This document shows, in pieces, positions 403 through 22,977 of a stretch of 64,000 nucleotides of DNA; position 1 is the stretch's first letter, and each line of letters starts with the position of its first letter. The notes beneath the pieces were generated by a model. The model saw only the letters and a list, made by a program, of their open reading frames with translations. It was not told the DNA's origin and ran no database searches. The DNA comes from Mycobacterium sp. Root265 (lineage in GTDB: Bacteria > Actinomycetota > Actinomycetes > Mycobacteriales > Mycobacteriaceae), in the NCBI RefSeq assembly GCF_001428895.1, contig NZ_LMJA01000028.1:308638-372637 (forward strand). The letters are read 5' to 3'. The translations under genes and the position numbers were made by a program.

Positions 403-1502
403 CACACGAATCGACAACGGCCTGGCGGGAATTGCTCGACACCCTGCGTGACCTGGACCGCTCCTTCCTGCAGGGGGACAAGGCCGTGACCGACGACCGC
501 CACATCGGGGACGGATACCGCATGCTGGCCACCACCCTGGGCGTCGCGCTGGACACCTACCTGTTCGCCGACCCGAGCCGCCCCCAGTGGTTGGAGGTCA
601 ACTCGCCGTGGCGTCCGGACCGGCGCTGGGGTGGGGACAACACCGACGCCATCTACTTCATGTGCCCGGTCGACCCGCAGCGGCGCTACCGGATCAGCGG
701 CAATCGTGGTGACAGCGTGTACTTCTCGGTGACCGCCTACAACGAACCCGCCCCCGGCGCGTGGTCGGACCGGATTGTCGCGCTGTTCCGTGATGACGAC
801 CTGGACTTCGACGCCGAGGGGAACTTCTCCTTCGAGTTCGGCCCACAACCCGACGCCGCCGTGTTGATGACCCGCGACTACCAGGCCGACCCGCACACCG
901 GCACCGCCGTCGCCTGGAACATCGAGGCCCTCGATGCACCCGACGCCTTCCGACACGGCGACGCCGAGACGGCCTCGGCGCTGCGCGCCAGCGCGGCCTG
1001 GATGCGCACCATGTTCGCGATCCTGCCGCTGGCCGTCGGCGCGAAGGTCGCCGACAACCACGAACTCGGTCATGAGACAGCCATGGCGGCCAACGATTTC
1101 GCAGCGCCCTACCAGGTGCCGGACGCAAACTTCGGGTGGTCGGCGCGCGATGCCTGCTACGGCTACGGCAGCTTCGATCTCGCCGAGGACGAGGCGCTGG
1201 TGATCACCCACCGGCCACCGGCCTGCCGGTTCTGGAACCTGGTGGTGTGGAACCAGTTCATGGCGACGCCGGGCGTGCGCGATGCCCGCAGTTCGCTCAA
1301 CGGCCACACCGCGGTACCCAATGGCGACGGTTCGGTGACCGTGGTGGTGTCCCGGGGCCTCACCGAGCACCCGAATTCGCTGACAACACTGGACTACCCG
1401 CGGGGCAACCTGGCCTTCCGCTGGTTCCTGGCCGACGAGGTGCCCGACCGGCCGCAGGTGCGGCTGGTCAAGGTCACCGACGCGCCGACGGTTGTGGAGT
1501 GA
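399..1502 (+). CDS. DUF1214 domain-containing protein
   Basis: A 367-residue protein starting at the ATG that overlaps the TetR stop codon (ATGA). The C-terminal half carries the DUF1214 pattern: a TRP-rich segment (CRFWNLVVWNQ) and the closing stretch where NLAFRWFLADEVPDRPQV resembles the family end. No signal peptide or membrane segment is visible. DUF1214 proteins are often encoded beside TetR regulators in mycobacteria but their biochemical function is not established. Its last 29 bases overlap, tail to tail, the end of the LLM monooxygenase gene on the other strand. A longer in-frame start at 354 lies inside the TetR gene and is less likely. Confidence 0.85.
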   Translation: MTHESTTAWRELLDTLRDLDRSFLQGDKAVTDDRHIGDGYRMLATTLGVALDTYLFADPSRPQWLEVNSPWRPDRRWGGDNTDAIYFMCPVDPQRRYRISGNRGDSVYFSVTAYNEPAPGAWSDRIVALFRDDDLDFDAEGNFSFEFGPQPDAAVLMTRDYQADPHTGTAVAWNIEALDAPDAFRHGDAETASALRASAAWMRTMFAILPLAVGAKVADNHELGHETAMAANDFAAPYQVPDANFGWSARDACYGYGSFDLAEDEALVITHRPPACRFWNLVVWNQFMATPGVRDARSSLNGHTAVPNGDGSVTVVVSRGLTEHPNSLTTLDYPRGNLAFRWFLADEVPDRPQVRLVKVTDAPTVVE

Positions 1503-2850
1503 GATGCGCGGCCGGCGCCAGACCGAGGTGCTCGCGCAGCGTGGTGCCCGCATAGTCGCTACGGAACACCCCGCGCTCCTGTAGCAACGGCACCACCGAA
1601 TCGACGAACGGATCGAGTCCGGCCGGGGTGACATGCGGGACCAGGATGAATCCATCACTGGCATCGGCCTGCACCAGCTTGTTGATCTCCTCGGCCACCG
1701 TCGCCGGTGACCCGATGAAGTTCTGCCGTCCCGTCACCTCGATGATGAGTTCACGAGTGCTGAGGTTTTCGCCCTCGGCTTTGGCGCGCCACTCGTTGGC
1801 GACGGCGATCGGATCGCGGTGCATCCGGACGCTGGCCCGGCCCCGGGCGATGGTGTTCTCACCGACCACCGGGTCGACGGACGGCAACGGGCCGTCCGGG
1901 TCGTGGTCGGACAAATCCCGGTTCCACAGCTGCTCCAGGAACTTGATTGCGGTCGCCGGGGACACCTGCGCCAACCGCACCTCGTGGGCGATATCGGCGG
2001 CCTCGGAATCGGTGTCGCCGAGTACGAACGTCGCCGCGGGCAGGATCAACAGCTGATCGTGACTGCGGCCGTACGCGGCCAGCCGTCCCTTCACATCGGC
2101 GTAGAACGCCTGACCCTCGGCAAGGGTGCCGTGCCGGGAGAAGATCGCATCGGCTGAGCGTGCGGCGAACTCGCGGCCGTGATCGGAGTCGCCGGCCTGG
2201 AAGATGACCGGGCGGCCCTGCGGGCTGCGCGGAACATTGAACCGGCCGGAGATGTCGAAATGCTCGTCCCGATAAGAGAATCCGCCGGCGTCGGGGTCTG
2301 ACAGGAATGTGCCGGTGTCCTTGTCGGCGACGATCTCGTCACCGCGCCACGCGTCGAACAGGGTATGCGCGGCGGCCAGGAAACTCTCGGCACGAGCGTA
2401 GCGCTGCTCCTCGGCCAGATACCCACCGCGCCGGAAGTTCTCACCGGTGAAGGCATCCCACGAGGTGACGACGTTCCAGGCGGCGCGCCCCCCGGACAGA
2501 TGATCCAGCGACGCGAACTGACGTGCCACTTCATAGGGTTCATTGAACGTCGAGTTGATGGTTCCGGTCAGCCCGAGCCGTTCGGTGACGGCGGCCAGCG
2601 CTGCGAGCACCGTGAAGGTGTCCGGGCGCCCGACCACGTCGAGGTCATAGATCTGCCCGCCCTGTTCGCGCAGGCGCAGGCCTTCGGCCAGGAACAGGAA
2701 ATCGAACTTGCCCCGCTCGGCGGTCTGGGCGAAATGGGTGAACGAACCGAAGTCGATGTGGCTGCCCGAGTTCGGATCGCTCCAGACGGTGGTGTTGTTG
2801 ACACCGGGGAAGTGCGCGGCGAGATGAATCTGCTTGAGCGGCTTGGTCAT
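1474..2850 (-). CDS. LLM class flavin-dependent monooxygenase (NtaA/SnaA/DszA-type), 458 aa
   Basis: Long-form luciferase-like monooxygenase related to nitrilotriacetate monooxygenase NtaA, pristinamycin SnaA and dibenzothiophene-sulfone DszA. These use reduced FMN from a separate reductase and O2 to cleave C-S or C-N bonds. Family marks are the N-terminal strand with AERGKFDFLFLAEG (about residues 44-57), the phosphate-loop region GGRAAWNVVTSWD (120-132), RYARAESF after it, and a C-terminal FVDSVVPLLQERGVFR block. The length is normal. It lies 9 bp after the next LLM gene, so the two form one operon. AGGA precedes the ATG. Cytoplasmic. The substrate cannot be named. Confidence 0.9.
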   Translation of the reverse strand: MTKPLKQIHLAAHFPGVNNTTVWSDPNSGSHIDFGSFTHFAQTAERGKFDFLFLAEGLRLREQGGQIYDLDVVGRPDTFTVLAALAAVTERLGLTGTINSTFNEPYEVARQFASLDHLSGGRAAWNVVTSWDAFTGENFRRGGYLAEEQRYARAESFLAAAHTLFDAWRGDEIVADKDTGTFLSDPDAGGFSYRDEHFDISGRFNVPRSPQGRPVIFQAGDSDHGREFAARSADAIFSRHGTLAEGQAFYADVKGRLAAYGRSHDQLLILPAATFVLGDTDSEAADIAHEVRLAQVSPATAIKFLEQLWNRDLSDHDPDGPLPSVDPVVGENTIARGRASVRMHRDPIAVANEWRAKAEGENLSTRELIIEVTGRQNFIGSPATVAEEINKLVQADASDGFILVPHVTPAGLDPFVDSVVPLLQERGVFRSDYAGTTLREHLGLAPAAHLTPQPSARR

Positions 2851-2859
2851 CTGGATGTC

Positions 2860-3993
2860 CTAGGAGTGTGCGTACCGGTTGGCGGGGCGGGACAGGCCGA
2901 ACAGGTCACGCAGAGTGGATCCCTGGTAGCCACTGCGGAACACGCCTCGGCGCTGCAGTTCGGGGACCAGCGCGCCGGTGATCTGGCGCAGATCGTGCGG
3001 GATGCTGGCCGGCCGCAAGCGGAATCCGTCCGCACCGGCGGTCTGCCACTGCTGCAGCAGGTCGGCCAGCTGCGCGGGGGTGCCGACGAAAACCTCGGCA
3101 TCGCTGATGTATTCGCGGCCCAGCAGCTCGTCGAGTTGGGCGCGGTGCGCCGCGGCGGCGGTCGGGGTATCGGCCAGGAACACCACCAGGTCCGGCAAGA
3201 TCCGCAATGGCGGGGCACCGTCTGTGCGCAGCGCGGCGATGGTCTCGATGATGGTGCCGACCTCGTCGGCGCCGTGCGGGGTGATGAACCCGATATCGGC
3301 ACTGGAGGCGATCAGCTGATAGGCCGGGTCGCCGTGACCGAGCGCGGCGACCAGCGGCTGGCCCTGCGGCGGTCGCTGCGTGATCGACGGGCCCTTGACC
3401 GAGAACCAGCGTCCCTCGAAGTCGATGTAGTGCAGCTTGTCCCGATCGATGAACCGGCCGGTGGCGGCATCGCGGATCTCGGCGTCGTCCTCCCAGCTGT
3501 CCCACAGCCGGCGCAGCACCTCGACATAGTCGGCGGCCTCGGCCAGCGCGTCGTCGGCCACCTGGCGCCCGAAGTGGCCCGCGGACTCGGGGTTGGCGGA
3601 GATCTGTACCCGCACGCCGGCCCGCCCGGTGCTGACGTAGTCGAGCGTGGCGACGGCCTTGGACAGGTGGAACGGTTCGGTGTGGGTGGTGATGGCGGTG
3701 GGGATCAGCCCGATGTGGCGGGTCGTCGGCGCCACCCGTGCTGCGATCTGCACGGCGTCGACGCGGCCGCGGACACGGTCGGTGCGGTGATCGGGCCGCC
3801 ACGGATGATCCGACTGCAGCGCCAGCCCGTCCTCGATGGTGACGAAGTCCAGCATTCCGCGCTCGGCCTCGACCACCAGCTCGGCCCAGTAGGGCGCGGT
3901 CAGCAGGTCGGCGGGTTGGGCGTCGGACTGCCGCCACGACGCCGGGTGCCAGCCGGTGCCGTCCAGGGCGACGCCGAGGTGAAGGTGTGCCAC
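2860..3993 (-). CDS. LLM class flavin-dependent oxidoreductase, 377 aa
   Basis: Second luciferase-like monooxygenase of the operon. It begins at GTG with GAGAAG upstream. It has the TIM-barrel family marks: AERGMLDFVTIEDGLAL near residues 44-60, a TRHIGLIPTAITTHTEPFHLSK segment near 90-110 and DYVSTGRAGVRVQISANP just after, where the usual WNVVT is replaced by VRVQIS. This is the shorter branch of the family and probably differs in substrate from its 458-aa neighbour. The C-terminal GVFRSGYQGSTLRDLFGL block is shared by both. FMN binding and a need for an external reductase are inferred from the family. No reductase gene is obvious in the cluster. Confidence 0.85.
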   Translation of the reverse strand: MAHLHLGVALDGTGWHPASWRQSDAQPADLLTAPYWAELVVEAERGMLDFVTIEDGLALQSDHPWRPDHRTDRVRGRVDAVQIAARVAPTTRHIGLIPTAITTHTEPFHLSKAVATLDYVSTGRAGVRVQISANPESAGHFGRQVADDALAEAADYVEVLRRLWDSWEDDAEIRDAATGRFIDRDKLHYIDFEGRWFSVKGPSITQRPPQGQPLVAALGHGDPAYQLIASSADIGFITPHGADEVGTIIETIAALRTDGAPPLRILPDLVVFLADTPTAAAAHRAQLDELLGREYISDAEVFVGTPAQLADLLQQWQTAGADGFRLRPASIPHDLRQITGALVPELQRRGVFRSGYQGSTLRDLFGLSRPANRYAHS

Positions 3994-4099: not shown

Positions 4100-4480
4100 T
4101 TACAAGGGATCCGCGCACCCTGATTCCGGCTGCACGGCGGCGATCACGCCGTCGAGCACCGCCCGGGACCCGGTGAGTTCACGGATGGCGCGGTCGAGCC
4201 GTTCGCGTTCGGAGGTCAGCTCGTCGACCAGCCGGCCGGTGGCGTGCGGGGCGGGCCCGCCGTCGTGATCGCGCATACACGGCAGCAGCCCGACGATGGT
4301 CCGGCTGGGCAGCCCGGCGGCGAACAGTTCCTGGATGTGGATCACGCGGTCGACCGCCTGCTCGGCGTAATCACGCTGCCCGCCGGGAGTACGCGACGAC
4401 ACCAGCAGACCCTGCTGCTCGTAGTACCGCAGTGAGCGTTCGCTCACTCCGGTGCGCTGTGCCAGTTCACCGATGCGCAT
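4100..4480 (-). CDS. MerR family transcriptional regulator
   Basis: A 126-residue MerR-type activator. The N-terminal winged helix-turn-helix is clear (residues 1-40: MRIGELAQRTGVSERSLRYY, then the GGQRDY wing), followed by a dimerisation helix rich in leucine, arginine and glutamate (about 75-115). The effector-binding tail is short; one cysteine at CMRD (about 68) and one near the C-terminus (GCADPL) are present, which is not the metal-binding pattern of MerR or ZntR. It is divergent from the polysaccharide-deacetylase-family gene, with 59 bp between them holding a textbook MerR-type promoter. It probably activates that gene and folD. The inducer is unknown. Confidence 0.9.
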   Translation of the reverse strand: MRIGELAQRTGVSERSLRYYEQQGLLVSSRTPGGQRDYAEQAVDRVIHIQELFAAGLPSRTIVGLLPCMRDHDGGPAPHATGRLVDELTSERERLDRAIRELTGSRAVLDGVIAAVQPESGCADPL

Positions 4481-4502
4481 CAGCCCGTTATACCGCAGGA
4501 GC

Positions 4503-4534: not shown

Positions 4535-4539
4535 GCGGC

Positions 4540-5406
4540 ATGACCTCGCAACCCAACCCCCCGTTCCACTACAGCCCGATCACCGAACGGCCCCCGCTGA
4601 GCTGGCCCGGCGGCGCCCGGGTCGCCGTGTACATCGGCCTCAACGTCGAACACTTCCTGCCGGACCGGCCCTCGACCAGCATCTGGCCCGGCACCGCCGA
4701 CCTGCAGCCCGACGCGCTGAATTACGGGTGGCGTGACTACGGAGCCCGGGTCGGTATCTGGCGGACCATCGAGAGCCTCGACCGGCACGGTGTGCGGCCC
4801 AGCGTGCTGCTCAATTCCGCAGTCATCGAACACCATCCGCAGATCATCGCCGCCGGACGGGAACGTGACTGGGTGTGGTTGGCGCATGGTCGGACCAACT
4901 CGATCCTGCACAACGGGTTCGGTGTCGACGAAGAACGCCGGCTGCTCACCGAGATCACCGCCGCCATCGCCGAGGCCACCGGCCGCAGACCGCTGGGCTG
5001 GATGGGCCCTGGCCTCACCGAGACCCATCACACCCCGGAGTTGTTGGCCAACCTCGGCTATCGGTACGTGCTCGACTGGACCAATGACGACCAGCCCTAC
5101 CCGCTGACCGAATACGGGATGCTCAGCGTCCCGTATTCGGTGGAGCTCAACGACCTGCTGCTGTTCGGAAAGGGCTTCACCGGTCCGGAATTCGTGCAGA
5201 TCGTCATCGACCAGTACGAACAACTGTCCGCGGATGCCGCGAACGGGTCGGGGCGGGTACTGGCCTTGGCGCTGCATCCGTTCGTCATCGGGCAGGCCTT
5301 CCGGCACAAGTATTTCGATCAGGTGCTTGCCTATCTGGCATCGCGGCCCGATGTCTGGCTGACAACCAGCGATGACATCGCTGCCGCGTTCTTGGGTACT
5401 GTGTGA
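4540..5406 (+). CDS. Polysaccharide deacetylase family protein (PuuE/allantoinase-like branch)
   Basis: A 288-residue NodB-fold protein without a signal peptide, so probably cytoplasmic. The N-terminal strand VAVYIGLNVEHF sits where the family has its first acidic metal-site residue, and WVWLAHGRTN plus the late ALALHPFVIGQ supply histidines. The stretch GWMGPGLTETHHTPELLANLGY is typical of the allantoinase/PuuE-like group that acts on small C-N compounds rather than on cell-wall polymers. The exact reaction is not predictable. Expression is probably leaderless from a MerR-type promoter. A ZTP riboswitch aptamer begins at its stop codon, and folD follows 93 bp on, which ties it to one-carbon or amide metabolism. 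Confidence 0.8.
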   Translation: MTSQPNPPFHYSPITERPPLSWPGGARVAVYIGLNVEHFLPDRPSTSIWPGTADLQPDALNYGWRDYGARVGIWRTIESLDRHGVRPSVLLNSAVIEHHPQIIAAGRERDWVWLAHGRTNSILHNGFGVDEERRLLTEITAAIAEATGRRPLGWMGPGLTETHHTPELLANLGYRYVLDWTNDDQPYPLTEYGMLSVPYSVELNDLLLFGKGFTGPEFVQIVIDQYEQLSADAANGSGRVLALALHPFVIGQAFRHKYFDQVLAYLASRPDVWLTTSDDIAAAFLGTV

Positions 5407-5499: not shown

Positions 5500-6354
5500 T
5501 TGACTGCGAACATCATCGACGGCGTACGCGTCGCCAACGACATCCTGGCCGACACCCGCCGAAAGGCCGTGGAGTTCGAACACGCCGCAGGCCGAAAGGC
5601 CTGTCTGGCAACGGTGCTGGTCGGCGATGACCCGGCGTCGCACACCTACGTGCGGATGAAGATCAACCGCTGCCGCACCACCGGCCTGTATTCCCGCAGT
5701 CACCATGTCGACGCCACGGCGAGCACCGCCGACGTCGTCGCGTTGGTCGAACACCTTTCGGCGGACGACACCGTCGATGGCATCCTCGTCCAGCACCCGA
5801 TGCCCGCCCAGATCGATGAACGCGCGGTGTTCGAGGCGATCGCACCCGGCAAGGACGTCGACGGGGTCACCACGGCGTCCTTCGCGGCCATGGCCCTGGG
5901 CGGACACGGATTCCGGTCGTGCACCCCGGCCGGCATCATGCACCTCCTCCACGCGTACGGTGTCGATCCGACCGGGCAGCACGCCGTTGTCGTGGGCCGC
6001 AGCCCCATCCTGGGCAAGCCCGTCGGAATGCTGTTGCTGGCCCACAACGCCACCGTCACCTACTGCCATTCGCGCACTGTGGACCTGCCCGGTGTCATCG
6101 CCCGCGCCGACATCGTGATCGCGGCGGTCGGGAAGCCCGAGCTCATCAGGGGTGACTGGATCGCACCCGGGGCGGTGGTCATCGACGCCGGGTACAACCC
6201 GGGCAATGTCGGTGACGTCGAGTACGCGGCGGCCGCCGAGCGCGCCGGGCTGATCACACCGGTGCCCGGCGGCGTCGGCCCGACCACCATCGCCGTCCTC
6301 CTGGAGCAGACCGTCGCGGCTGCCCTCAGCTCGCCGCGGCCGGCGACGGGGTGA
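5500..6354 (+). CDS. folD: Bifunctional methylenetetrahydrofolate dehydrogenase / methenyltetrahydrofolate cyclohydrolase
   Basis: FolD interconverts 5,10-methylene-, 5,10-methenyl- and 10-formyl-tetrahydrofolate using NADP. The 284-residue length is normal. The catalytic YVxxK motif is intact (Tyr50, Lys54), GKDVDGVT is near 115, VVVGRSPILGKP forms the cofactor loop near 165, and PGGVGPTTIAVLLEQT closes the protein. The start is TTG at 5500, chosen because GAGGAG lies 8 bases upstream and the protein then begins exactly where FolD proteins do. The SD is buried in a hairpin of a ZTP riboswitch. This may be a second folD besides the housekeeping copy, because it sits in a catabolic cluster. 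Its end overlaps the next gene tail to tail by 29 bp. Confidence 0.95.
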   Translation: MTANIIDGVRVANDILADTRRKAVEFEHAAGRKACLATVLVGDDPASHTYVRMKINRCRTTGLYSRSHHVDATASTADVVALVEHLSADDTVDGILVQHPMPAQIDERAVFEAIAPGKDVDGVTTASFAAMALGGHGFRSCTPAGIMHLLHAYGVDPTGQHAVVVGRSPILGKPVGMLLLAHNATVTYCHSRTVDLPGVIARADIVIAAVGKPELIRGDWIAPGAVVIDAGYNPGNVGDVEYAAAAERAGLITPVPGGVGPTTIAVLLEQTVAAALSSPRPATG

Positions 6355-7717
6355 ACCTGCCTCGCCAGTACCGGGCCGGGTGTCGGTCCGGCAGCGCAGC
6401 GCCCGCCCCGAAGATCTTGTCGCGCAGCGTTCCCGGCGCGTACTCGGTCTGGGCCAGTCCGCGGCGCCGCAGTTCGGGCAGCACGTGATCGATGAACTCC
6501 TCGAAGCTGCCCGGAGTGGTGATGTAGCGGATGTTGACCCCGTCGACCCCGGCGTCCTGCCACCGCTCGAGCGCATCGGCGATCTGTTCTGGCGTGCCGA
6601 CGATGCGGGTGGACTCCTGTTGCTGGCGGATCAGATCGGCGATCGTCGGGTTGGTGCCCGGGGGAGCGGCGGCGATGAGCGCCTCGATGGTGCTGCGGGT
6701 GCCCTGCACCCCGGCGGCCAGATCGCCGATGGGGGTGTGGTGATCCAGCCCGCCCAGGTCGATCCCGATACCGCCGCTGCGATGCGCGATCAGGCCGTCC
6801 ACACTCAGGTACTCGTCGAGTTCGGCGGCGCGCGCCCTGGCTTCGGCTTCGGTGGACCCGACGACGAAGGACAGGCCCTGCAGGAACTTGATGTCCCCGC
6901 GGCGGCGGCCGGCGGCCACCGCCCGGTCGCGGGTGTCGTCGATCACCACCTTGGCGCCCTTGGGCGACGCCGAGTTGAGGAACACGCCCTCGGCGTGCCG
7001 TGCAGCGAATGCCCGCCCGGCCGTTGACGTTCCGGCCTGGAAGATCACCGGGGTGCGCTGCGGCGACGGGAAGCTCAGATGCGGGCCCTCCACGTTGTAG
7101 CGGGGACCGGCATGGTGGATCTTGTGCACCTTGTCGGGGTCGGCGTGGATACCGCGTTCCCGGTCCCGCAACAGGGCGCCGTCATCCCAGGAACCCTCCC
7201 ACAGCTTGTACACCACCTCGGTGTACTCCTCGGCCCATTCGTAGCGCTTGTCGTGTTCCTCGCGCTCGGCGAGCCCGAAGTTGCGGGCCGAGTTCTTCAG
7301 CGCGCTCGTGACCACATTCCAGCCGATCCGCCCGCGGGAGGCGTGATCGAGAGTGGAGATCTTGCGCGCGAACGAGAACGGATGATCCTGCAGCACCGAA
7401 CTGGTGATCACCAGGCCCAGATGCTCGGTGGACAGCGCCAGCGCCGATACGATCGCCGACGGATCATGGTTGGGAATCTGCAGGCCTTCCCGCAAATACG
7501 TCTCCCAGCCGCCGCGGTAATCGTCGTAGACGCCCACCACATCGGCGAAGAACACCGAGTCGAACTTGCCGCGCTCGAGCAACTTCACCAGATCCACCCA
7601 CACCTGCAGTTGATCGAATTCCCCGCTGCGGGTTTCGGGACTGCGCCACAAGCCGTAGGACACGTGGGTGGCGGTGTTCATGGTGAACGCGTTGAGGATC
7701 AGGCGGGGACGGGCCAT
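6326..7717 (-). CDS. LLM class flavin-dependent monooxygenase (NtaA/SnaA/DszA-type), 463 aa
   Basis: Long-form luciferase-like monooxygenase. Marks are LLERGKFDSVFFADVVGVYDD (about residues 46-66), ASRGRIGWNVVTSALKNSARNFG (126-148), RYEWAEEYTEVVYKLWEGSW after it, and the C-terminal HVLPELRRRGLAQTEY block. The start ATG at 7717 overlaps the SDR stop codon (TGATG) and gives MARPRLILNAF, which is where family members begin, so longer in-frame extensions are rejected. It is the last gene of a four-gene operon running from 10879 down to 6326. The fold and FMN use follow from the family; the substrate is not known. Cytoplasmic, and dependent on a separate flavin reductase. Confidence 0.9.
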   Translation of the reverse strand: MARPRLILNAFTMNTATHVSYGLWRSPETRSGEFDQLQVWVDLVKLLERGKFDSVFFADVVGVYDDYRGGWETYLREGLQIPNHDPSAIVSALALSTEHLGLVITSSVLQDHPFSFARKISTLDHASRGRIGWNVVTSALKNSARNFGLAEREEHDKRYEWAEEYTEVVYKLWEGSWDDGALLRDRERGIHADPDKVHKIHHAGPRYNVEGPHLSFPSPQRTPVIFQAGTSTAGRAFAARHAEGVFLNSASPKGAKVVIDDTRDRAVAAGRRRGDIKFLQGLSFVVGSTEAEARARAAELDEYLSVDGLIAHRSGGIGIDLGGLDHHTPIGDLAAGVQGTRSTIEALIAAAPPGTNPTIADLIRQQQESTRIVGTPEQIADALERWQDAGVDGVNIRYITTPGSFEEFIDHVLPELRRRGLAQTEYAPGTLRDKIFGAGAALPDRHPARYWRGRFTPSPAAAS

Positions 7718-15470: not shown

Positions 15471-17102
15471 TCAGTCCTTTCCCGTGGTGAGCGTGTGCGA
15501 ATCATCGATCCAGGTGTCGTAGAACCACGGCACCGAGTTGGCGGCGTTCGCGAATCCCTGAACGCGCGGCGCCACCGCGAAGATCTGGGTGTCTTCGAGC
15601 AACGGCACCGAGTAGGCGTTGTCGATGACGTAGTTGTTGTACTCCTGCAGCAGCTTCAGCCGTTGCTGCGGATCGGTCGCCGAGATCTGGGCATCCAGCA
15701 GCCGGTCGATGGCGGGATCGGCACCGTCGAGCGCGTAGAGGTCACCGCCCTTGCTGCCGTAGTTCTGCCACAGCCTGACGGGGTCGGCTGTCGGCCAGCC
15801 GTTGCGCCGCAGCCCCACCGAGTCCTCGATGCTGGCCGTGGGGTAGTTGGCGAAATCGGTCTGGCGGATCACGAGCCGGATCCCGATGCGCTTGAGCTGG
15901 CGCTGGATCAACTCGTACATCGGTTTGGCGGTGTGGTCGTAGACGTCGACATAGATCAGTGCCGACAGCTGCTCACCGTTCTTGACGCGGTAGCCCTCGC
16001 CGTCGGTCTGGGTCCAGCCCGACGCCTCCAGCCGCCGGACCGCTTCTTTGGGGTCATAACGGACGGCATCGCTGCGGTCGGTGTAGCCCGGGAAATTCTT
16101 GGTCACGATGTTCTGGGCCGGCTGCCAGTGCTCGGTGTACAGCGTGCGCAAGATCTCGTTGCGGTCGATGCCGAACCCGATGGCCTTGCGGACGTTGACA
16201 TCGGCCATGAACGGCGCGCTCTGCCGGACGTCGAGGGTGTTGGCCAGGCCCGGGGTGCGCAACCCGCGCACGTCGAATCCTTCGCGGTCCAGCAGCCGTT
16301 CGTCGGGCGGTTGGGCGTAGCGGATGGCGTCGGCCTGCCCGGCCCGCAGCGCCCCGACCCGGACGCTGTCCTCGGTCACCGGGATGACGGTGATGCTGTC
16401 CAGATAGGCCTCACCCTGATGCGGCGCGGTGGCCGGGGCCCAGTCGTAGCCCCGCCGCTTGGCGAGCACGATCTGCTTGTCCGGGATCTGGGACTCCGCG
16501 TAGAACGGTCCGGAACCGATGAGATTCGTGACGACAGACTGGGTTTCCTTACTGGCATCAATGGTGGCGTCGGCGACCAGGCCCGCGGTGTTCAGCGAGA
16601 GCACTGCGATGAACGGCGCATACGGTTCGGGGAGCGTCACCCGCACGGTGCGGCGTTCGTTGTCCGCGGTAACCAAGGCGATCTTGGGGAAGTAGCTGTT
16701 GCGGGTGATGCCCTTCTCTTTGTCGCCGTTGGCCTGCCATTGCAGGTTGCGGCGCACCGATTCGGCGTCCAGGGGTTGGCCGTTGCTGTAGGTCACTCCG
16801 TCGCGGATGGTGAACTCGTACACCAGATGGGCATTGTCGACCGTCCACTTCTCGGCGATCCACGGCACGTAGTCGAAGGTCTTGGGGTCCTGGTAGACCA
16901 GCCGGTCCAGCATCTGGTCCTTCAGCAGGCTGTTCTGCCAGTAACTGACCTGGATCTGCAGCGCGGCCGGCGCTTCGGCGTCCAGATACGTCAGGTGGCC
17001 GCCGCGTGCACCGTCACCGGCCTGCGGTGCGGGCTCCCCGGTACTGCACGAGGTGAGCAGGGCGGCAAGCAGAACGACGGCCGTGCGCCGCAGGCCGGTC
17101 AT
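15471..17102 (-). CDS. ABC transporter substrate-binding lipoprotein (family 5, peptide/nickel type)
   Basis: A 543-residue extracytoplasmic solute-binding protein. It begins with a lipoprotein signal: positive N-terminus, hydrophobic core and the lipobox LLTSC with Cys19. The mature part has the SBP_bac_5 layout, with IRDGVTYSNGQPLDAESV (about residues 97-115) typical of DppA/OppA-like proteins, and NVRKAIGFGIDRNEI (about 303). It would catch a small ligand outside the membrane and pass it to the two permeases encoded upstream. Family 5 proteins bind peptides, nickel, glutathione and other small molecules, so the ligand is open. ATGA overlap with the ATPase gene. Confidence 0.93.
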   Translation of the reverse strand: MTGLRRTAVVLLAALLTSCSTGEPAPQAGDGARGGHLTYLDAEAPAALQIQVSYWQNSLLKDQMLDRLVYQDPKTFDYVPWIAEKWTVDNAHLVYEFTIRDGVTYSNGQPLDAESVRRNLQWQANGDKEKGITRNSYFPKIALVTADNERRTVRVTLPEPYAPFIAVLSLNTAGLVADATIDASKETQSVVTNLIGSGPFYAESQIPDKQIVLAKRRGYDWAPATAPHQGEAYLDSITVIPVTEDSVRVGALRAGQADAIRYAQPPDERLLDREGFDVRGLRTPGLANTLDVRQSAPFMADVNVRKAIGFGIDRNEILRTLYTEHWQPAQNIVTKNFPGYTDRSDAVRYDPKEAVRRLEASGWTQTDGEGYRVKNGEQLSALIYVDVYDHTAKPMYELIQRQLKRIGIRLVIRQTDFANYPTASIEDSVGLRRNGWPTADPVRLWQNYGSKGGDLYALDGADPAIDRLLDAQISATDPQQRLKLLQEYNNYVIDNAYSVPLLEDTQIFAVAPRVQGFANAANSVPWFYDTWIDDSHTLTTGKD

Positions 17103-18703
17103 GCGGCCCGGGCCGGTGCGCCCGGCACCGCGTCGAGCAGGCGCTGCGTGTACGGCGCGGACGGTGCGGCGAACACCCGCGAGACCGGTCCGGTCTCCAC
17201 CAGGCGTCCGTGCTCGAGCACGCTGACCTGATCGGCGATCTGACGGACCAGGCTCAGGTCATGCGAGATGAACAGATAGGTCAGGGCGAGCTCGCGTTGC
17301 AGCTCGATGAGCAGATCCACCACTTGCGCCTGCACGGTGACGTCGAGCGCGGAGGTGGGTTCGTCGAGTACCAGGATGGGCGGGCTGAGCACCAGCGCCC
17401 GGGCCAGCACGACCCGCTGGCGTTGCCCGCCGGAGATCTCGCCCGGCTTGCGCTCGGCGAGTCCCGCAGGCAGCCCGACCCGGTCGAGCGCCTGGGTGAC
17501 CTCGCGGCGGCGATCCCGCCGGGAGCCGATGCGGTTGATCCGCAACGGTTCTGCGATGGCCTCCTCGATGGTGAACCGAGGGTCCAACGAGGCCAGCGGA
17601 TTCTGATGCACCATCTGCAGGACGCGGGCCTGTGCGCGCTGCCGGTCCCGGTCCAGCGCGCGATGCGGTTCCCGGACGACGCCGTCGACGCGCACCTGGC
17701 CGGCGTCGAAGGCGGTCAGACCGGCGAGCACCCGGGCCGCGGTGGTCTTTCCCGAACCCGATTCACCGACGAGTGCGTGGATGGTGGCGCGCTGGACCTC
17801 CAGGGAGACCCCGTCCAGCACCGGGGTGTCGCCGTAGCGTTTCACCAGATCGGTCACCTGCAGTATCGGTTTGCCATCGGGCGCCTCGGTGGCCCGCGCG
17901 TACTTGTCGGGGGACAGTGCGGGCGCGTCGGCGATGAGCTGGCGGGTGTACTCGGCCTGCGGGTTGATCAGCACCGTCGTCGTCGGTCCGGCCTCACGGA
18001 CGTGACCCTCGTGCAGCACGACCACGCTGTCGCTGTGGTGTTCGGCCAGCGCGAGATCGTGGGTGATGAACACGACGCCGAGGCCGCGGTCCCGGCGCAG
18101 GTCATCCAACAGATCGAGGATCCGTTGCTGGACAGTGACATCGAGGGCAGAGGTCGGTTCATCGGCGATCAGCAGCGCCGGGTCACCCGCTATCGCGATG
18201 GCGATGAGGACGCGTTGCAGCTGGCCGCCCGAAAGCTGATGGGGGTAGTCCTCGGCGCGGCGCGCGGGTTCCTTGATGCCCACGGTGTCGAGCAGCTCGA
18301 CCGCCCGCCGGCGGGCCGCCTGCCTGCCGGCAAGGCGGTGCACGATCAGCACCTCGGCCACCTGATCGCCGACCTTCTTCAGTGGGTCGAGGGAACCGAG
18401 CGGATCCTGCGGCACGAAACCGATGGAGGTGCCGCGCAGTTCGCGCCATTCGCCCGGGGACAGTCCGGTGACCTCGGCACCGGCGATCGAGATGTGGCCC
18501 GCGGTGACGCGTCCGTTCTCGGGCAGCAGACCCTGGACGGCGCGGGCGATGGTGGACTTGCCCGACCCGGACTGACCGACCACGGCGACCACCCGGCCCT
18601 GCTCGACCTCCAGGGATACGTCCCGGACCACCGGGCGTACACCGGACCGGGTGGTGTACTCGATGTCGAGCCCGGAAACCGACAGCAATATAGGCGAACT
18701 CAT
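17099..18703 (-). CDS. ABC transporter ATP-binding protein, fused two-domain (DppD-DppF type)
   Basis: A 534-residue ATPase made of two complete nucleotide-binding domains in one chain. Domain 1 has Walker A GQSGSGKST (43-51), signature LSGGQLQR and Walker B LLIADEPTSALD. Domain 2 has Walker A GESGSGKTT (about 305), signature ISGGQRQR and ILVLDEPTSALD. Peptide-type importers usually encode these as two genes; fusion is common in actinobacteria. It energises import through the two permeases. Its start is 1 bp from the DppC-like gene end, and its stop overlaps the binding-protein gene (ATGA), so it is co-translated with both. Confidence 0.95.
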   Translation of the reverse strand: MSSPILLSVSGLDIEYTTRSGVRPVVRDVSLEVEQGRVVAVVGQSGSGKSTIARAVQGLLPENGRVTAGHISIAGAEVTGLSPGEWRELRGTSIGFVPQDPLGSLDPLKKVGDQVAEVLIVHRLAGRQAARRRAVELLDTVGIKEPARRAEDYPHQLSGGQLQRVLIAIAIAGDPALLIADEPTSALDVTVQQRILDLLDDLRRDRGLGVVFITHDLALAEHHSDSVVVLHEGHVREAGPTTTVLINPQAEYTRQLIADAPALSPDKYARATEAPDGKPILQVTDLVKRYGDTPVLDGVSLEVQRATIHALVGESGSGKTTAARVLAGLTAFDAGQVRVDGVVREPHRALDRDRQRAQARVLQMVHQNPLASLDPRFTIEEAIAEPLRINRIGSRRDRRREVTQALDRVGLPAGLAERKPGEISGGQRQRVVLARALVLSPPILVLDEPTSALDVTVQAQVVDLLIELQRELALTYLFISHDLSLVRQIADQVSVLEHGRLVETGPVSRVFAAPSAPYTQRLLDAVPGAPARAA

Positions 18704-18704: not shown

Positions 18705-19553
18705 TCAACCGACCTTCTTTCGGATGAGTTGGGCGAGCCGGGACAGACTCATCACCGTCAGCACGATGGCCACCGCCGGGAAGTAGACCAGGCCGGGTGC
18801 AGAGTTGATGTAGTTGCGGCCCTCGGAGATCAGCAGTCCCCATTCGGGATCCGGCGGCTGCGCGCCGTAACCGAGGAAGCTCAGCGACGCGATGGCCAGG
18901 ATGGCGGTCCCGAACTGCAGGGCCGCCAGCGACAGCACCGCGGAGTAGGAGTTGGGCAACACGTGACGGAACAGCAACGTCAGGTGGCTGGCGCCGAGGT
19001 GTTCGCTGGCCTCGACGAAGGGCAGGTTGCGGGTGGCGAGTACCTCGGAGCGGGCCAGCCGGGCGAACACCGCGATGGAGGAAACCCCTACGGCGATGGC
19101 GGCATTCACGGTGCCGAACCCCAGCGCGACGATGATGGTGATGGACAGCAGCAGGGTGGGGATGGACAGCAGCACGTCGATGATCCGGCTGATGATGCTG
19201 TCGGTGGCCCGGCCGAAGTACGCCGCGAGCAGGCCGAGGATCGTTCCGGCCAGCAACCCGATGATGACCGCGATGAACGAGCCGGCGATGGTGGCGGCGG
19301 TTCCCGCGATGACTCTGCTGAGCAGGTCGCGGCCGATGTAGTCGGTGCCGAACGGGTGCGCCAGGGTGGGCCCGGCCAGCGGCAGCGCCGGGTTCTCCTG
19401 CAGCGGGTCGTAGGGCGCGATGGTGCCCGGCGCGATGATCATCGCGGCGACCAGCAGCAGGAACAGGATCGGCGGGACATCCCACACACTCAGGCGCAGC
19501 CGCTGCGGAATGCGGGAGGTCTGCGGTGCGGGCAGCGCTTCGACGACGGTCAT
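18705..19553 (-). CDS. ABC transporter permease (DppC-like)
   Basis: A 282-residue integral membrane protein with about six hydrophobic segments, the first at residues 24-45 (VPPILFLLLVAAMIIAP). The N-terminal part HPFGTDYIGRDLLSRVIAGT is the conserved DppC/OppC region before helix 2. The coupling-helix region, the EAA-like loop, is visible around EASEHLGASHLTLLFRHVLP (about 192-211). The start ATG at 19553 overlaps the DppB-like stop codon in ATGA. It pairs with the DppB-like permease to form the import channel. Confidence 0.93.
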   Translation of the reverse strand: MTVVEALPAPQTSRIPQRLRLSVWDVPPILFLLLVAAMIIAPGTIAPYDPLQENPALPLAGPTLAHPFGTDYIGRDLLSRVIAGTAATIAGSFIAVIIGLLAGTILGLLAAYFGRATDSIISRIIDVLLSIPTLLLSITIIVALGFGTVNAAIAVGVSSIAVFARLARSEVLATRNLPFVEASEHLGASHLTLLFRHVLPNSYSAVLSLAALQFGTAILAIASLSFLGYGAQPPDPEWGLLISEGRNYINSAPGLVYFPAVAIVLTVMSLSRLAQLIRKKVG

Positions 19554-20503
19554 GCCGGTACCACCTGGCTCTTGGTTGCCGTGCCGATGCGCGGGTCGAT
19601 CAGCGGATAGAGCACATCGACGATGAGGTTGATCAGGACGAACGTCACCGACACGGTGATGACGACCGCCTGGATGATGGGAGTGTCCTGATTGCGGACC
19701 GCGGTCTCGGTGAGGTAGCCGATCCCGGTGCGGTTGAAGATCGTCTCGGTGATGACCGAGCCCGCGAGCAGTTCCCCGACCGTGATCGCCACGATGGTGA
19801 GGGTGGGAATCGATCCGTTCTTCAGCAGATGGCCGAAGACGATCCGGTTCTCGCTCAGCCCTTTTGCCCGCAGCACCTCGACGTAGGGTTGTCCTGCGGC
19901 ATTGCTCAACCCCTGTATCAGGACCTGGGCTATCGGTGCGGCCACCGGCAGGGCCAGCGGTATCGCGGCCAGCAGTGTCGAACTGAACCCCTCGTCGCGG
20001 ACCGCCGACACCCAGCCGAGACTGAACGAGAAAAGCTGTAGGGCAATGAGGCCGGTGACGAACACCGGGATCGACAAGAACGCCGGCGGAATCGAGCGGG
20101 CCACTTCGCGTGCTGCGGGCCACGGTGCGAAGACCGCTGCCAGCGCGATGGCCAGACCGAGCGCGGCGGCGAGCACGAACGCCACCCCGGCCAGCGCGGC
20201 CGTGGAGGGCAGGGCGTGGGCCAGCAGCTCGGACACCGGCTGGCCGCTGTTGAGCGAATAGCCGAGATCGCCTGTGAACAAACGCTGTACCGACACACCG
20301 AACTGGACGATCGCCGGTTCACTGAGACGGTAGTAGTCCCGCAGGACCTGCGCGTCCTCTTCGGAGATGGGGTTCTCCGGATTGGATATCTGTTGCTCGA
20401 TCGGGTCGCCTGGAAGCACGTTCAGCACGAAAAACACTGCCGTGTAGGCCAGCACGATCACCACGATCGACTGTGCGATGCGGTGCAGCGTTGTGTTCAA
20501 CAC
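19550..20503 (-). CDS. ABC transporter permease (DppB-like), first gene of operon
   Basis: A 317-residue membrane protein of the DppB/OppB family. It has the N-terminal segment IAQSIVVIVLAYTAVFFVLNVLPGDPI, the EAA-like loop around YVEVLRAKGLSENRIVFGHLLKN (about 202-224) and a C-terminal helix before RIGTATKSQ. It heads an operon in the order DppB, DppC, fused ATPase, binding protein and ACAD-like enzyme. The start is GTG at 20503, or TTG one codon on. No strong SD is visible, so the exact start is uncertain. The promoter must be in the 177-bp divergent gap upstream. Confidence 0.92.
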   Translation of the reverse strand: MLNTTLHRIAQSIVVIVLAYTAVFFVLNVLPGDPIEQQISNPENPISEEDAQVLRDYYRLSEPAIVQFGVSVQRLFTGDLGYSLNSGQPVSELLAHALPSTAALAGVAFVLAAALGLAIALAAVFAPWPAAREVARSIPPAFLSIPVFVTGLIALQLFSFSLGWVSAVRDEGFSSTLLAAIPLALPVAAPIAQVLIQGLSNAAGQPYVEVLRAKGLSENRIVFGHLLKNGSIPTLTIVAITVGELLAGSVITETIFNRTGIGYLTETAVRNQDTPIIQAVVITVSVTFVLINLIVDVLYPLIDPRIGTATKSQVVPA

Positions 20504-20680
20504 CCTGAGGAAGTTATGCCGCCCGCAGCCCGGTGACCACCATTCGGCCCTTAAGGAACATTAAGCCGACACTTCACCTGTACTTAACTGTTGTCCGAGC
20601 ACGCATTGACCCGTCATGCATTTGGAGTTGCCGTGAGCGCAACCGTTGTCTGAACCACGTCGCGACGTAGCGTCGAAGGC
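20504..20680. promoter_or_regulatory. Divergent transporter / LLM intergenic region
   Basis: This 177-bp gap separates the transporter operon (minus strand) from two LLM genes (plus strand). It contains CCTTAAGG (20549-20556) and then TTAAGCCGA (20561-20569), the same 9-mer as in the LysR/TauD promoter region. AT-rich tracts near 20580-20590 may hold promoter elements. No gene is visible. Confidence 0.45.
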
Positions 20681-21652
20681 ATGGCTGTCGCACTATCGGT
20701 CGGGGTGGAGGTGGTCGGCGACGGGGTCGCCGACCGCAGGGTGGGAGCCGAAGCGCCGGCCCGCGGAATTGCCGGGCTGGCCCGGCGACTGGAGTCCGCG
20801 GGGGTGGGCTACTGGGTGATCGGTGCCGAACGGGGTGAGTCGACCCACGCCGGCACGGTGACCCTGGATCCGTCGCTCGTCGCGACGATCGCGGCCCGGC
20901 ACAGCACCCGGCTGGGCCTGGTGGTGTCGGCGGCGGGACACCGCGACCATCCCTACAACCTGGCCCGCCGGCTGATATCGGTGGACCACGCGGCCCAGGG
21001 CCGGGTCGGCTGGCTGGCACTCGATTTCGATCACAGCATCGCCCTCAACGCCGCCAGCGACACTTGGACGGGCGCCGCCCTCGATGCCACGCACACCGAC
21101 GACGCGGTACACGCCGTCCGGACGCTCTGGCGGACATGGCCTTTGGAATCCGTGCTCGGCGACACGGCGGCGGGCGTGTTCGCCGACGTGACGCAGATCC
21201 GGCGCGCCGACGTGCGCGGTGGATACGCGATCACCGGACCACTGAACGTTCCGGGTTCGGTCCAGGGCGATCTGCCGGTCTGGCGTCAGGCCGCCCGGGG
21301 CGGCGCTGTCGCACCGTCGGGGGCGGACCTTGTGGTGGTCGAGGACCGCGAACCAGTACCGGACGGCACCCCGGTCGTGATCAGGGTGCGGGCACTGCAC
21401 TCGATCGCGGCGACGCTCGACCGGATCGCCGGTATCCCGGCGGCACAGGGTGTGCTGCTGCGGGTGGCTCCGCATGTGTTCGACCATGTGCTGGACCGGG
21501 TGTTACCCGCGGCGCGGCGCCGCGGTGTGATCGGTGGCCCGGGGGAGGGCACGCTGCGTCAGCGGCTGCGTCTCCCGGTCCCGGACAGTCCGGATCTGTC
21601 CGGGCACGCAGCTGTTTTCGATGCCGTTCCGAACCCGGGCGGCCGATTGTGA
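20681..21652 (+). CDS. Shortened LLM-family protein (possibly non-catalytic)
   Basis: A 323-residue luciferase-like protein about 120 residues shorter than its long-form paralogs. Family traces are RLGLVVSAAGHRDHPYNLARRLISVDHAAQGRVGW (about 76-110), GPLNVPGSVQGDLPVWRQA in place of the NIPRSPQGYPLLVQAG block, and a C-terminal HVLDRVLPAARRRGVIGG. The WNVVT segment reads WLALDF and the central section between the two halves of the barrel is missing. It may be a divergent enzyme or a decayed partner of the next LLM gene, with which it overlaps by 1 bp (TGATG). The frame is intact with no stop, so it is kept as a gene. Confidence 0.8.
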   Translation: MAVALSVGVEVVGDGVADRRVGAEAPARGIAGLARRLESAGVGYWVIGAERGESTHAGTVTLDPSLVATIAARHSTRLGLVVSAAGHRDHPYNLARRLISVDHAAQGRVGWLALDFDHSIALNAASDTWTGAALDATHTDDAVHAVRTLWRTWPLESVLGDTAAGVFADVTQIRRADVRGGYAITGPLNVPGSVQGDLPVWRQAARGGAVAPSGADLVVVEDREPVPDGTPVVIRVRALHSIAATLDRIAGIPAAQGVLLRVAPHVFDHVLDRVLPAARRRGVIGGPGEGTLRQRLRLPVPDSPDLSGHAAVFDAVPNPGGRL

Positions 21653-22977
21653 TGGGGCGCAGACTGATGGGCTTGACCGACAACCTGATCCTCAACGTCA
21701 ATGTGCTCAATGTCGGGATCCACACCGGTTCCTGGCAACTCAGCAGCGAAGCGCCCACCGCGTTCGCCGATCCGGGCTACTACGTCCGGATGGCCAAGAT
21801 CGCCGAACGCGGGCTGCTCGACGCACTGTTCCTGGCCGACGGTCCCGCGTTGCGCGAGCATCCCGCGCTGCGGCCGTCGCAGGCGTTGGAACCGAGTGTC
21901 ATCCTGGCGTCGGTGGCGGCCGAGACCGAGCACCTCGGGCTGATCGGCACGTTGTCGTCGACCTTCAACGATCCGGTGGAACTCGCGCACCGCCTGCTCG
22001 GGCTGGATCAGCTGTCGCAGGGCCGGTGCGCCTGGAACGTGGTCACCACCTACTCGCTGCCCGCCGGGGGCAACTTCGGGCTGGCCGACTACCCGGACCG
22101 GCCGACCAGGTACCGGCGCGCCGCCGAGTTCGTGGATGTGGTGCGGGCACTGTGGCAGGACGCCGCCGACGCCGGTGCCCGCGGAATCGACCATCAGGGT
22201 GAGTTCTTCACCGTGGTCGGTTCGCTGCCGCAAGGGCAGTCGCCGCAGGGATATCCGTTGCTGGTGCAGGCCGGTGGCTCACCGCAGGGTCGCGAACTGG
22301 CCGGCCGTGCCGCCGACGCGGTGTTCAGTGCGGAACTCGACCTGGGGGCGGGCGTGGAACACTACCGCCACGTCAAGGATGTCGCGGTGGCCACCGGTCG
22401 CCGGCGCAGCGATGTCAAGATCCTGCCGGGATTGATCACCACGATCGGCAGCACCACGGCCGAGGCACAGCGGCGCTACGAGCGGCAGAGCGCACTGTTG
22501 CCGGCGGGCCATGACATCGAGCGGTTGTCGCAGGTGCTCGGTGAGGATCTGTCCGGCTACGCCCTGGACGGGCCGGTGCCCGGGCACCTGCTCGGTGAGG
22601 TGCGGGATCCGGCGAAGTTCGGTGCCTCGCTGGGGTTCCGGGAGTCGGTGGTCCGGCTGGTCGAGAGCCGGGGTCTGACGCTGCGGGAGGCCATCCGTGA
22701 GTTCAGCGGTGCCGGGCACCGCGTCGTGGTCGGCACGCCCGTCGATGTCGCCGACGCCATCGAGCAGTGGTTCCTGGCCGGTGCTGCCGACGGATTCAAC
22801 CTGATGCCCGACGTGTTCCCGGACGGGCTGGAGATCTTTGTCGACGAGGTGGTGCCGATCCTGCAGGAGCGCGGCCTGTTCCGCACCGAGTACACCGAAT
22901 CGACCCTGCGGGAACGTTTCACCGGATATCCGCTCCCGACCGGGGCGCCGGCGTCGGCGCGGGCCCGGCCGGCGTGA
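21652..22977 (+). CDS. LLM class flavin-dependent monooxygenase (NtaA/SnaA/DszA-type), 441 aa
   Basis: Complete long-form luciferase-like monooxygenase. Marks: LNVNVLNVGIHTGSWQ at the N-terminus, AERGLLDALFLADGPALREH (51-70), SQGRCAWNVVTTYSLPAGGNFG (122-143), RYRRAAEFVDVVRALW, SPQGYPLLVQAGGSPQGREL, and a C-terminal PILQERGLFRTEYTESTLRERF. The start at 21652 overlaps the preceding stop codon; the ATG at 21667 is a possible alternative. With the short LLM gene it forms a two-gene operon divergent from the transporter, so import and oxidation are likely to be co-controlled. The substrate is not known. Confidence 0.9.
   Translation: MGRRLMGLTDNLILNVNVLNVGIHTGSWQLSSEAPTAFADPGYYVRMAKIAERGLLDALFLADGPALREHPALRPSQALEPSVILASVAAETEHLGLIGTLSSTFNDPVELAHRLLGLDQLSQGRCAWNVVTTYSLPAGGNFGLADYPDRPTRYRRAAEFVDVVRALWQDAADAGARGIDHQGEFFTVVGSLPQGQSPQGYPLLVQAGGSPQGRELAGRAADAVFSAELDLGAGVEHYRHVKDVAVATGRRRSDVKILPGLITTIGSTTAEAQRRYERQSALLPAGHDIERLSQVLGEDLSGYALDGPVPGHLLGEVRDPAKFGASLGFRESVVRLVESRGLTLREAIREFSGAGHRVVVGTPVDVADAIEQWFLAGAADGFNLMPDVFPDGLEIFVDEVVPILQERGLFRTEYTESTLRERFTGYPLPTGAPASARARPA

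Follow-up and report, generated by a model that had tools for sequence, protein, structure and literature searches.

Gene content of the locus

The subject of this analysis is a putative sulfur-starvation gene cluster of Mycobacterium sp. Root265, found in a stretch of 64,000 nucleotides (contig NZ_LMJA01000028.1, positions 308,638 to 372,637), which is called the window. The cluster begins and ends with genes of luciferase-like monooxygenases (LLM), numbered LLM1 to LLM7. A preliminary description, made from the sequence alone, had reported seven LLM genes together with genes of a DszC/SfnB-like flavoprotein (here SfnB/MsuC-like), a TauD-like dioxygenase, an aldo/keto reductase (AKR), a short-chain dehydrogenase (SDR), a peptide-type ATP-binding cassette (ABC) importer and two regulators (here of LysR and MerR type), and open frames are present at all the positions claimed (Table 1). 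Pfam support was obtained for the AKR, the ATPase, permease C, MerR, the SDR and TauD. The count of seven LLM genes stands, but they divide into five ordinary genes and two degenerate ones, LLM2 and LLM6. The cut-off of the NtaA/DmoA family (TIGR03860, 279.7 bits) is exceeded by LLM1, LLM3, LLM5 and LLM7 and is reached neither by LLM2 nor by LLM6 (94.3 bits, partial match); a Pfam search with LLM6 gave no match. Ten of the genes form a set conserved in relatives and are termed the core.

The host genome of 6.67 Mb contains 84 PF00296 matches, so LLM genes are commonplace in Root265, and 15 TIGR03860 matches lie over the cut-off. Of the named genomes, Mycolicibacterium sp. P9-22 (genome G211) comes nearest at this locus, with a 94% identical LLM6, and the host is accordingly taken to be a Mycolicibacterium-type mycobacterium.

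Table 1. Genes and promoter elements of the cluster, with positions in the window (C+M, cysteine plus methionine content; SBP, substrate-binding protein)
Feature	Position	Strand	Basis
LLM1, NtaA/DmoA-family monooxygenase of 458 aa, probably the catalytic partner of LLM2	1474..2850	-	TIGR03860 401 bits; C+M 0.22%
LLM2, degenerate NtaA relative of 377 aa, probably the non-catalytic partner of LLM1	2860..3993	-	TIGR03860 270.4 bits, below cut-off
MerR-type regulator	4100..4480	-	PF13411 64.1 bits; C+M 2.40%, normal
PuuE-like deacetylase, accessory, membership unsure	4540..5406	+	TIGR03212 101.1 bits (cut-off 424.6); C+M 0.70%
FolD, second genomic copy, probably bystander	5500..6354	+	C+M 3.18%; 1/11 clusters
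LLM3, NtaA/DmoA family	6326..7717	-	TIGR03860 496.5 bits; C+M 0.43%, or 0.22% with alternative start
SDR	7717..8466	-	PF00106 139.9 bits; no Cys, no internal Met
LLM4, SsuD-like monooxygenase	8451..9545	-	TIGR03565 225.2 bits (cut-off 518.2); C+M 0.28%
LLM5, NtaA/DmoA family	9542..10879	-	TIGR03860 566.9 bits; C+M 0.45%
Copy of TauD-promoter element, 5' of LLM5-LLM4-SDR-LLM3 operon	10944..10988	-	10-genome matrix, 15.7 bits
LysR-type regulator (core), start uncertain	10998..~11927	-	Orthologue in 11/11 clusters; C+M 3.57%
Conserved promoter element 5' of TauD, TTAAG..CTGAA.GGTTCCGGTAG..TTGTTC	12125..12169	+	11-genome alignment; matrix from 10
TauD-family Fe/2-oxoglutarate dioxygenase (core)	12199..13140	+	PF02668 198.9 bits; NF007104 226.2 bits (cut-off 313); no Cys, no internal Met
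AKR (core)	13166..14179	+	PF00248 273.4 bits; orthologue in 11/11 clusters; C+M 0.30%
SfnB/DszC/MsuC-like flavin monooxygenase, acyl-CoA dehydrogenase fold (core)	14252..15466	-	TIGR04022 235.8 bits (cut-off 430.9); PDB 6u76; no Cys, no internal Met
SBP of ABC importer, family-5 type (core)	15471..17102	-	TIGR04028 363 bits (cut-off 468.5)
Double ABC ATPase (core)	17099..18703	-	PF00005 twice, oligo_HPY; C+M 0.19%
ABC permease C, PermC (core)	18705..19553	-	PF00528 106.4 bits
ABC permease B, PermB (core)	19550..20503	-	Opp2B-like, below cut-off; no Cys, no internal Met
Conserved block, PermB/LLM6 divergent promoter	20549..20598	+	Promoter alignment and matrix
LLM6, short degenerate LLM, 323 aa, predicted NtfO1-like partner subunit (core)	20681..21652	+	LLM6 family profile; no Cys, no internal Met
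LLM7, NtaA/DmoA family, 441 aa, predicted catalytic partner of LLM6 (core)	21652..22977	+	TIGR03860 400 bits; alternative in-frame GTG start 21649

Cysteine and methionine poverty

The most striking property of the cluster is the near absence of sulfur-containing amino acids from its proteins. Sixteen proteins with 6122 residues contain only 3 Cys and 18 Met (start Met excluded throughout), and their median C+M is 0.27% against 2.66% in the 34 other genes of the window (p 2.6e-8). These 16 were picked after the values were known; the unselected version takes in each of the 19 genes between and including LLM1 and LLM7, and here 16 fall below 1%, whereas only 1 of the 34 remaining window genes does so (Fisher p 1e-9). 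Five proteins lack both residues altogether (Table 1), and only MerR, LysR and FolD lie above 1%. The flanking genes are normal (DUF1214 2.89%, DUF445 4.40%), so the borders of the unit are traced by composition. The DUF1214 protein (window 399-1502) overlaps the end of LLM1 and adjoins LLM1 also in P9-22.

The poverty extends to relatives. In 11 genomes, nine structural families of the core reach 0.34% (127/37,077), compared with 2.44% (370/15,133) in six families of housekeeping neighbours, and TauD has no Cys or internal Met in any of the 11. Furthermore, every called LLM6, LLM7 and SfnB-like protein at 12 non-mycobacterial loci is below 1%, most of them at 0, some of the LLM6 calls being partial and the one at L062 missing. 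Among the accessory families of relatives, the mean is low for nitroreductase (0.09%), FMO-like (0.28%), a second AKR (AKR2, 0.55%), OYE-like (0.83%) and PanE-like (0.83%) proteins and normal for P450 (2.99%), SDR2 (2.07%) and DapB-like (2.64%) proteins. The PuuE-like protein is intermediate, with a mean of 1.23% over five genomes.

Such values might also be a product of protein-family make-up or base composition rather than of selection under sulfur starvation. Low values are frequent among the other NtaA-type LLM of this genome. In a pool made up of the rest of the window and 25 further genomic stretches, mostly picked for holding LLM genes, 59 of 334 genes are below 1%; low C+M is therefore not exclusive to the cluster. 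The aligned part of NtfO1, an antibiotic-synthesis protein, is likewise poor (0.33% of 306 residues) despite that role, and the low value of LLM6 alone is consequently little proof of a sulfur function. Nevertheless, 36 sampled LLM genes elsewhere in the genome range from 0 to 3.86% (median 1.19%), the partner protein NtfO2 has 2.0%, and low values are shared by the unrelated folds of the cluster (ABC transporter, dioxygenase, AKR, SDR). Moreover, strong depletion is confined to Cys (0.06x) and Met (0.14x), the other amino acids lying at 0.73-1.30x with Lys lowest, and the GC content of the cluster (66-69%) resembles that outside (64-70%). An origin in family make-up or base composition is hence scarcely credible.

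Many of the 59 low genes sit in or beside LLM loci. Nearly Cys/Met-free examples are found at C27:571745-577089, C2:331516-333983, C28:493917-495134, C22:142440-149332 and C9:130601-132365, although some of these frames are possibly wrong. Their composition suggests a sulfur-starvation set that may be dispersed over the genome. Most LLM-family genes have no known substrate. C+M content offers an experiment-free means of separating a sulfur-starvation set from the other members of the family, and it splits neighbouring genes as well: nitroreductase, FMO-like and second AKR are low, while FolD, P450 and the regulators are normal.

Conserved core and exchangeable accessory genes

Among 298 genomes of the genus, the SBP finds a match at E <=1e-80 in 15, and 11 of these, the window genome included, show 80-100% identity. 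All 11 have the order LysR-, TauD+, AKR+, SfnB-, SBP-, ABC-, PermC-, PermB-, LLM6+, LLM7+, apart from an additional AKR gene that separates LysR from TauD in three genomes and an LLM7 cut by a contig end in G279. A nitroreductase-family gene sits between AKR and SfnB in 8 of 11; the three without it are the window genome, P9-22 and G270. For relatives, the positions of gene starts are approximate, and the counts of presence cover the fetched stretches (about 20 kb on each side, shorter in G159 and G279).

The genes left of LysR are changeable: LLM4, LLM5 and the PuuE-like gene occur in five of the 11, the SDR in four, LLM3 in three, LLM1 and LLM2 in two and FolD in one. Other genomes carry FMO-like, OYE-like, P450, PanE-like or second AKR genes there; FMO-like and OYE-like genes occupy the slots of LLM3, LLM4 and FolD in P9-22, where a further frame (L025:8668-10041), without a Pfam match, is perhaps a gene-caller error. 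The cluster lies near thrS in seven relatives, near Tex in four and beside DUF445 in the window genome and P9-22, so its position varies among genomes. For the preliminary description, homologues in unrelated contexts would have counted against its reading; the core context is kept in 11 of 11, while LLM1 to LLM5, SDR, PuuE and FolD vary between genomes.

An alignment scan with LLM6 gave 25 named loci, 13 of them in mycobacteria and the others in Rhodococcus/Rhodococcoides (4), Gordonia amarae, Williamsia, Herbiconiux (3), Jiangella, Thermocatellispora and Microbispora. By similarity alone, an SfnB-like gene is found in 23 and the full ABC set in 21 of the 25. A plasmid origin was rejected, as the 810 records retrieved in one search with LLM6 were all below 60% identity. 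The mobilizable-typed plasmid pRB98 of Rhodococcus oxybenzonivorans carries consecutive LLM6-like (34%), acyl-CoA dehydrogenase, LLM and TauD genes. At the locus of Mycobacterium lepraemurium (L060), LLM6-LLM7-SfnB-ABC is fragmented in the gene calls, with short LLM6 and LLM7 and split ABC, PermB and LLM4-like genes, which would be in line with genome decay. In M. yunnanensis (L054, 12252-17402), a second, diverged SBP-PermB-PermC-ABC copy (37-49% identity) lies immediately 3' of LLM7; the second copy is also Cys/Met-poor in G161 (0.18-0.71%).

Promoter elements

A matrix built from the TauD promoters of ten genomes finds only two sites in the window, the one at TauD and a copy 65 bases 5' of LLM5 (Table 1), the next best scoring -1.2 bits. 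None of 200 simulated windows with the same neighbour frequencies reached the score of the copy (best 15.4 bits). The same element stands 5' of LLM5 in G152 (23.1 bits) and 5' of another gene family in G152 (21.5 bits) and G165 (14.7 bits). We infer that LysR binds this element. Two results tell against a wide use of this control. No element above 8 bits precedes LLM5 in G165, G279 or P9-22, which leaves it in two of five clusters with LLM5. Additionally, the best score in the other 367,505 genomic bases sampled is at most 2.4 bits, and the other sampled sulfur-poor loci are accordingly outside the control of this element. Within the window, the matrix of the PermB/LLM6 block picks out no notable second site, the runner-up scoring 0.2 bits.

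Possible pairing of monooxygenase subunits

NtfO1-NtfO2 is a crystallised LLM heterodimer (PDB 7C2R and 7E36; PMC8027225). NtfO2 has a lid and contains the residues, probed by mutants, around the flavin mononucleotide (FMN) docked into it, while NtfO1 is without a lid; the coding regions of the homologues stmO1 and stmO2 overlap (PMC8027225). PDB entry 7e36, whose title is that of PMC8027225, has chains of 324 and 421 residues. The 421-residue chain is NtfO2 because all eight residue numbers of the paper fit it, and the 324-residue chain (7e36_A) should be NtfO1.

Several lines of evidence place LLM6 and LLM7 beside this pair. A family profile of LLM6 (24 sequences) has 7e36_A as its top PDB match over almost the full length (E 1.1e-31, 113.8 bits). 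A structural model of LLM6 (pLDDT 86.1, pTM 0.88) gives TM-scores of 0.70/0.71 with 7e36_A and 0.69/0.57 with BdsA, 0.71 being the best target-normalised value among the 50 matches listed. LLM7 (E 1.1e-70 to 7e36_B) retains seven of the eight FMN-pocket residues of NtfO2, with His151 replaced by Arg. LLM6 retains one, a Gln, which is itself kept in only 10 of 24 LLM6 relatives, and about 110 alignment columns of the lid, as judged by eye, are absent from its rows. The stop and start of the two genes overlap by the four bases GTGA in 11 of 11 clusters, and an LLM7 relative adjoins LLM6 in all 25 named loci (divergently in the three Herbiconiux loci; truncated or interrupted in L057, L060 and L068). 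Each protein forms one clade (support 100/100 for LLM6 and 100/99 for LLM7), purifying selection acts on LLM6 (dN/dS 0.147 in comparison with P9-22), and the distances of the two correlate over 13 loci (r 0.876, not equalled in 5000 permutations), which could also be explained by common descent of the host loci. The likeliest arrangement on these grounds would be a heterodimer in which LLM6 is the shorter subunit without FMN site and lid, as in NtfO1-NtfO2. LuxAB is a parallel to two-subunit LLM.

A number of observations weigh against such a pairing. YtnJ follows 7e36_A closely in the profile search (E 7.6e-31, 111 bits, less than 3 bits behind), its match running mainly across about 180 residues. 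LLM6 of the window searched alone has DszA (BdsA) first (6.6e-19) and 7e36_A tenth (7.5e-9), and Foldseek ranks BdsA before 7e36_A (E 1.1e-16 and 5.3e-16). LLM7 is nearest to MoxC/YtnJ structures, with MoxC first and 7e36_B fourth. Moreover, the tree has long branches and joins LLM6, LLM2 and NtfO1 with weak support (40/93), the dN/dS of LLM6 is the highest of 13 genes compared (others 0.035-0.135), and on pRB98 the acyl-CoA dehydrogenase gene separates the LLM6-like gene from the next LLM. It is possible, though the less favoured view, that there are no mixed pairs. LLM7 and LLM1 would then be ordinary homodimers, and LLM6 and LLM2 separate proteins that might act, for instance, as flavin carriers, substrate binders or chaperones. 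The single-sequence ranking and the pRB98 order suit this view, as does the placement of LLM6 and LLM2 in separate clades; the invariable adjacency, overlap and co-divergence of LLM6 with LLM7 and the nearly full-length profile match to 7e36_A speak against it.

A second heterodimer probably exists between LLM1 and a non-catalytic LLM2, judging from residues and neighbourhood. LLM1 retains seven and LLM2 two of the eight FMN-pocket residues, and LLM1 adjoins LLM2 in 12 of 12 loci (the best 12 of the matching genomes, window and P9-22 included). The closest structure of LLM2 is an NtaA enzyme, with 7e36_A in twelfth place, a ranking that does not favour the NtfO comparison. Of the 298 genomes, 173 have an LLM2 match, whereas the core occurs in 11. 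This distribution bears on the idea that the seven LLM form a single linear pathway for one compound. Their clustering and the promoter element common to TauD and LLM5 would agree with one pathway, which is however improbable in view of the wide spread of LLM2, the ten further loci elsewhere that hold the LLM1-LLM2 pair and the variation of LLM1 to LLM5 between genomes.

Should the pairs be real, the seven LLM genes would include two that encode partner subunits, expression of a single gene would yield inactive enzyme, and assays of actinobacterial C-S cleaving enzymes would become testable in a new way. No description of LLM pairs in sulfur scavenging was found in the open-access literature searched. 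The chances are about even that actinobacterial sulfur scavenging uses a novel class of two-subunit LLM (LLM6-LLM7 and, separately, LLM2-LLM1). Each would have a conserved pseudo-enzyme subunit that lost its flavin binding and turned into a docking partner for substrate or reductase, and the islands encoding them would be so strictly cleared of Cys and Met that composition by itself tells the members of the sulfur-starvation regulon.

Proposed function

Taken as a whole, the locus is very probably a sulfur-starvation island with a conserved core, exchangeable oxidoreductases and NtfO-like two-subunit monooxygenases, as far as sequence comparison can tell. The organosulfur cleavage suggested by the preliminary description draws strong support from the Cys/Met-poor proteins, from the nearest structures and from the conserved core and its importer. 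The best PDB match of the SfnB-like protein is 6u76 (MsuC, methanesulfinate monooxygenase), AtsK and Rv3406 are among the closest structures of the TauD-like protein, and LLM7 is headed by MoxC. A point on the other side is that no cluster protein exceeds the cut-off of any NCBIfam equivalog model among those displayed, which leaves folds and families as the basis for the proposed reactions. LLM4 falls short of SsuD, the PuuE-like protein of PuuE allantoinase and the SfnB-like protein of both SfnB (Table 1) and DszC (NF043015, 129.8 bits against 850); the TauD-like protein reaches the Pfam family but not taurine dioxygenase (NF007104), and none reaches the SfnG cut-off.

The preliminary description had also proposed that FolD, with the PuuE-like deacetylase, takes up a released C1 unit. 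The exceptions to low C+M being the two regulators and FolD, this idea is unsupported; FolD is also one of two folD matches in the genome, and the FolD/PuuE route was rejected because of composition and poor conservation (PuuE 5/11, FolD 1/11). A related alternative is a supply of carbon or nitrogen from nitrilotriacetate-like chelators, purines or amines, with PuuE and FolD handling the products and no role for sulfur. The NtaA family names, the PuuE-like gene, the second FolD copy and the peptide/nickel-type importer would fit it. It is nonetheless very unlikely, since Cys and Met are so extremely and selectively depleted in 11 genomes, the core includes both an SfnB/MsuC-like and a TauD-like gene, and FolD is ordinary in composition and not conserved.

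Under the sulfur-starvation reading, shortage of sulfate and cysteine would open the promoters of TauD, LLM5 and importer/LLM6-LLM7 through LysR-type control. The ABC importer would take up an organosulfur compound, the SfnB/MsuC-like flavoprotein would S-oxygenate it, and the LLM enzymes would cleave the C-S bond with FMNH2 and O2 to give sulfite and an aldehyde or ketone. The AKR and the SDR would reduce the latter product, TauD would act in parallel on alkyl sulfate esters or sulfonates, and the sulfite would enter cysteine synthesis. LLM6-LLM7, and probably LLM2-LLM1, would act as heterodimers supplied with reduced flavin by a reductase encoded outside the cluster. Low Cys and Met would make the whole machinery affordable for a cell without spare sulfur. 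The substrate is perhaps a polar organosulfur compound taken up by the family-5 (peptide/nickel) importer, possibly a thioether, sulfinate or sulfonate, with any single compound remaining a rather unlikely choice.

As the preliminary description had noted, no flavin reductase gene occurs among the window genes scanned. Its proposal that the reductase comes from elsewhere fits the Root265 genome but not relatives in general, since 8 of 11 core genomes carry a candidate, the nitroreductase-family gene, inside the cluster; no close copy of this gene was found in the Root265 genome (best 28 bits). A PF01613 flavin reductase at C27:592407-592838 (L100; 160 aa, 1 Cys, no internal Met, 0.63%) is the only Cys/Met-poor one of six. 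It is a candidate for a shared reductase. One shared reductase for the cluster enzymes is plausible by analogy with MsuE of Acinetobacter baylyi, which supplies many monooxygenases (PMC13352529).

The same genome contains a second LLM-rich, partly sulfur-poor region at C27:293018-323999 (L042, L043). Four of its seven LLM genes are NtaA-type. The region also encodes an NlpA-type lipoprotein together with an ABC ATPase, a family-5 SBP, a pair of GNAT acetyltransferases, an amino-acid permease and a protein of acyl-CoA-dehydrogenase fold. This gene content recalls YtnJ/MoxC-type salvage of S-modified cysteine.

Comparison with known systems

The LLM6-LLM7 genes share with NtfO1-NtfO2 and StmO1-StmO2 the overlapping arrangement, a short lidless and a longer NtaA-family subunit, the location of FMN residues in the long subunit and, as in NtfO1-NtfO2, the stronger conservation of that subunit (PMC8027225). 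They differ in that NtfO1-NtfO2 serves macrolactone biosynthesis, with no sulfur role in the accessible part of that source (PMC8027225), and in the ordinary C+M of NtfO2. LLM6 and NtfO1 may or may not share an origin, the branch joining them having a support of 46/74. For the SBP, TIGR04028 is the best family, yet the score stays below its cut-off, and this accession was not found in the open-access literature searched.

Rhodococcus qingshengii IGTS8 shows a sulfur-sparing response with Cys/Met-poor enzymes (PMC8557817). Like its DszA/DszC 4S pathway, the cluster combines monooxygenases of the NtaA family and of the acyl-CoA-dehydrogenase fold, both Cys/Met-poor, with a separate flavin reductase (PMC8557817). 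Unlike that pathway, it has no DszB-like gene among those scanned, and the portion of the IGTS8 source available does not mention degenerate LLM partners (PMC8557817). The SfnG/MsuC/MsuD-SsuD cascade from sulfones to sulfite likewise uses LLM and MsuC-type enzymes, and its one reductase, MsuE, serves many (PMC13352529); the cluster departs from it in proteins below the SfnG and SsuD cut-offs and in an importer of the family-5 type. Gordonia sp. NB4-1Y also has several low-Cys/Met NtaA/LLM oxygenases, which are induced there on organosulfonates and have a C+M of 0.88-1.33% against 3.01%, although the cluster gene order does not appear in the accessible part of that report (PMC7661421). The kind of system is already known; what is new is the strict removal of Cys and Met over nine structural core genes and the conserved degenerate LLM partners.

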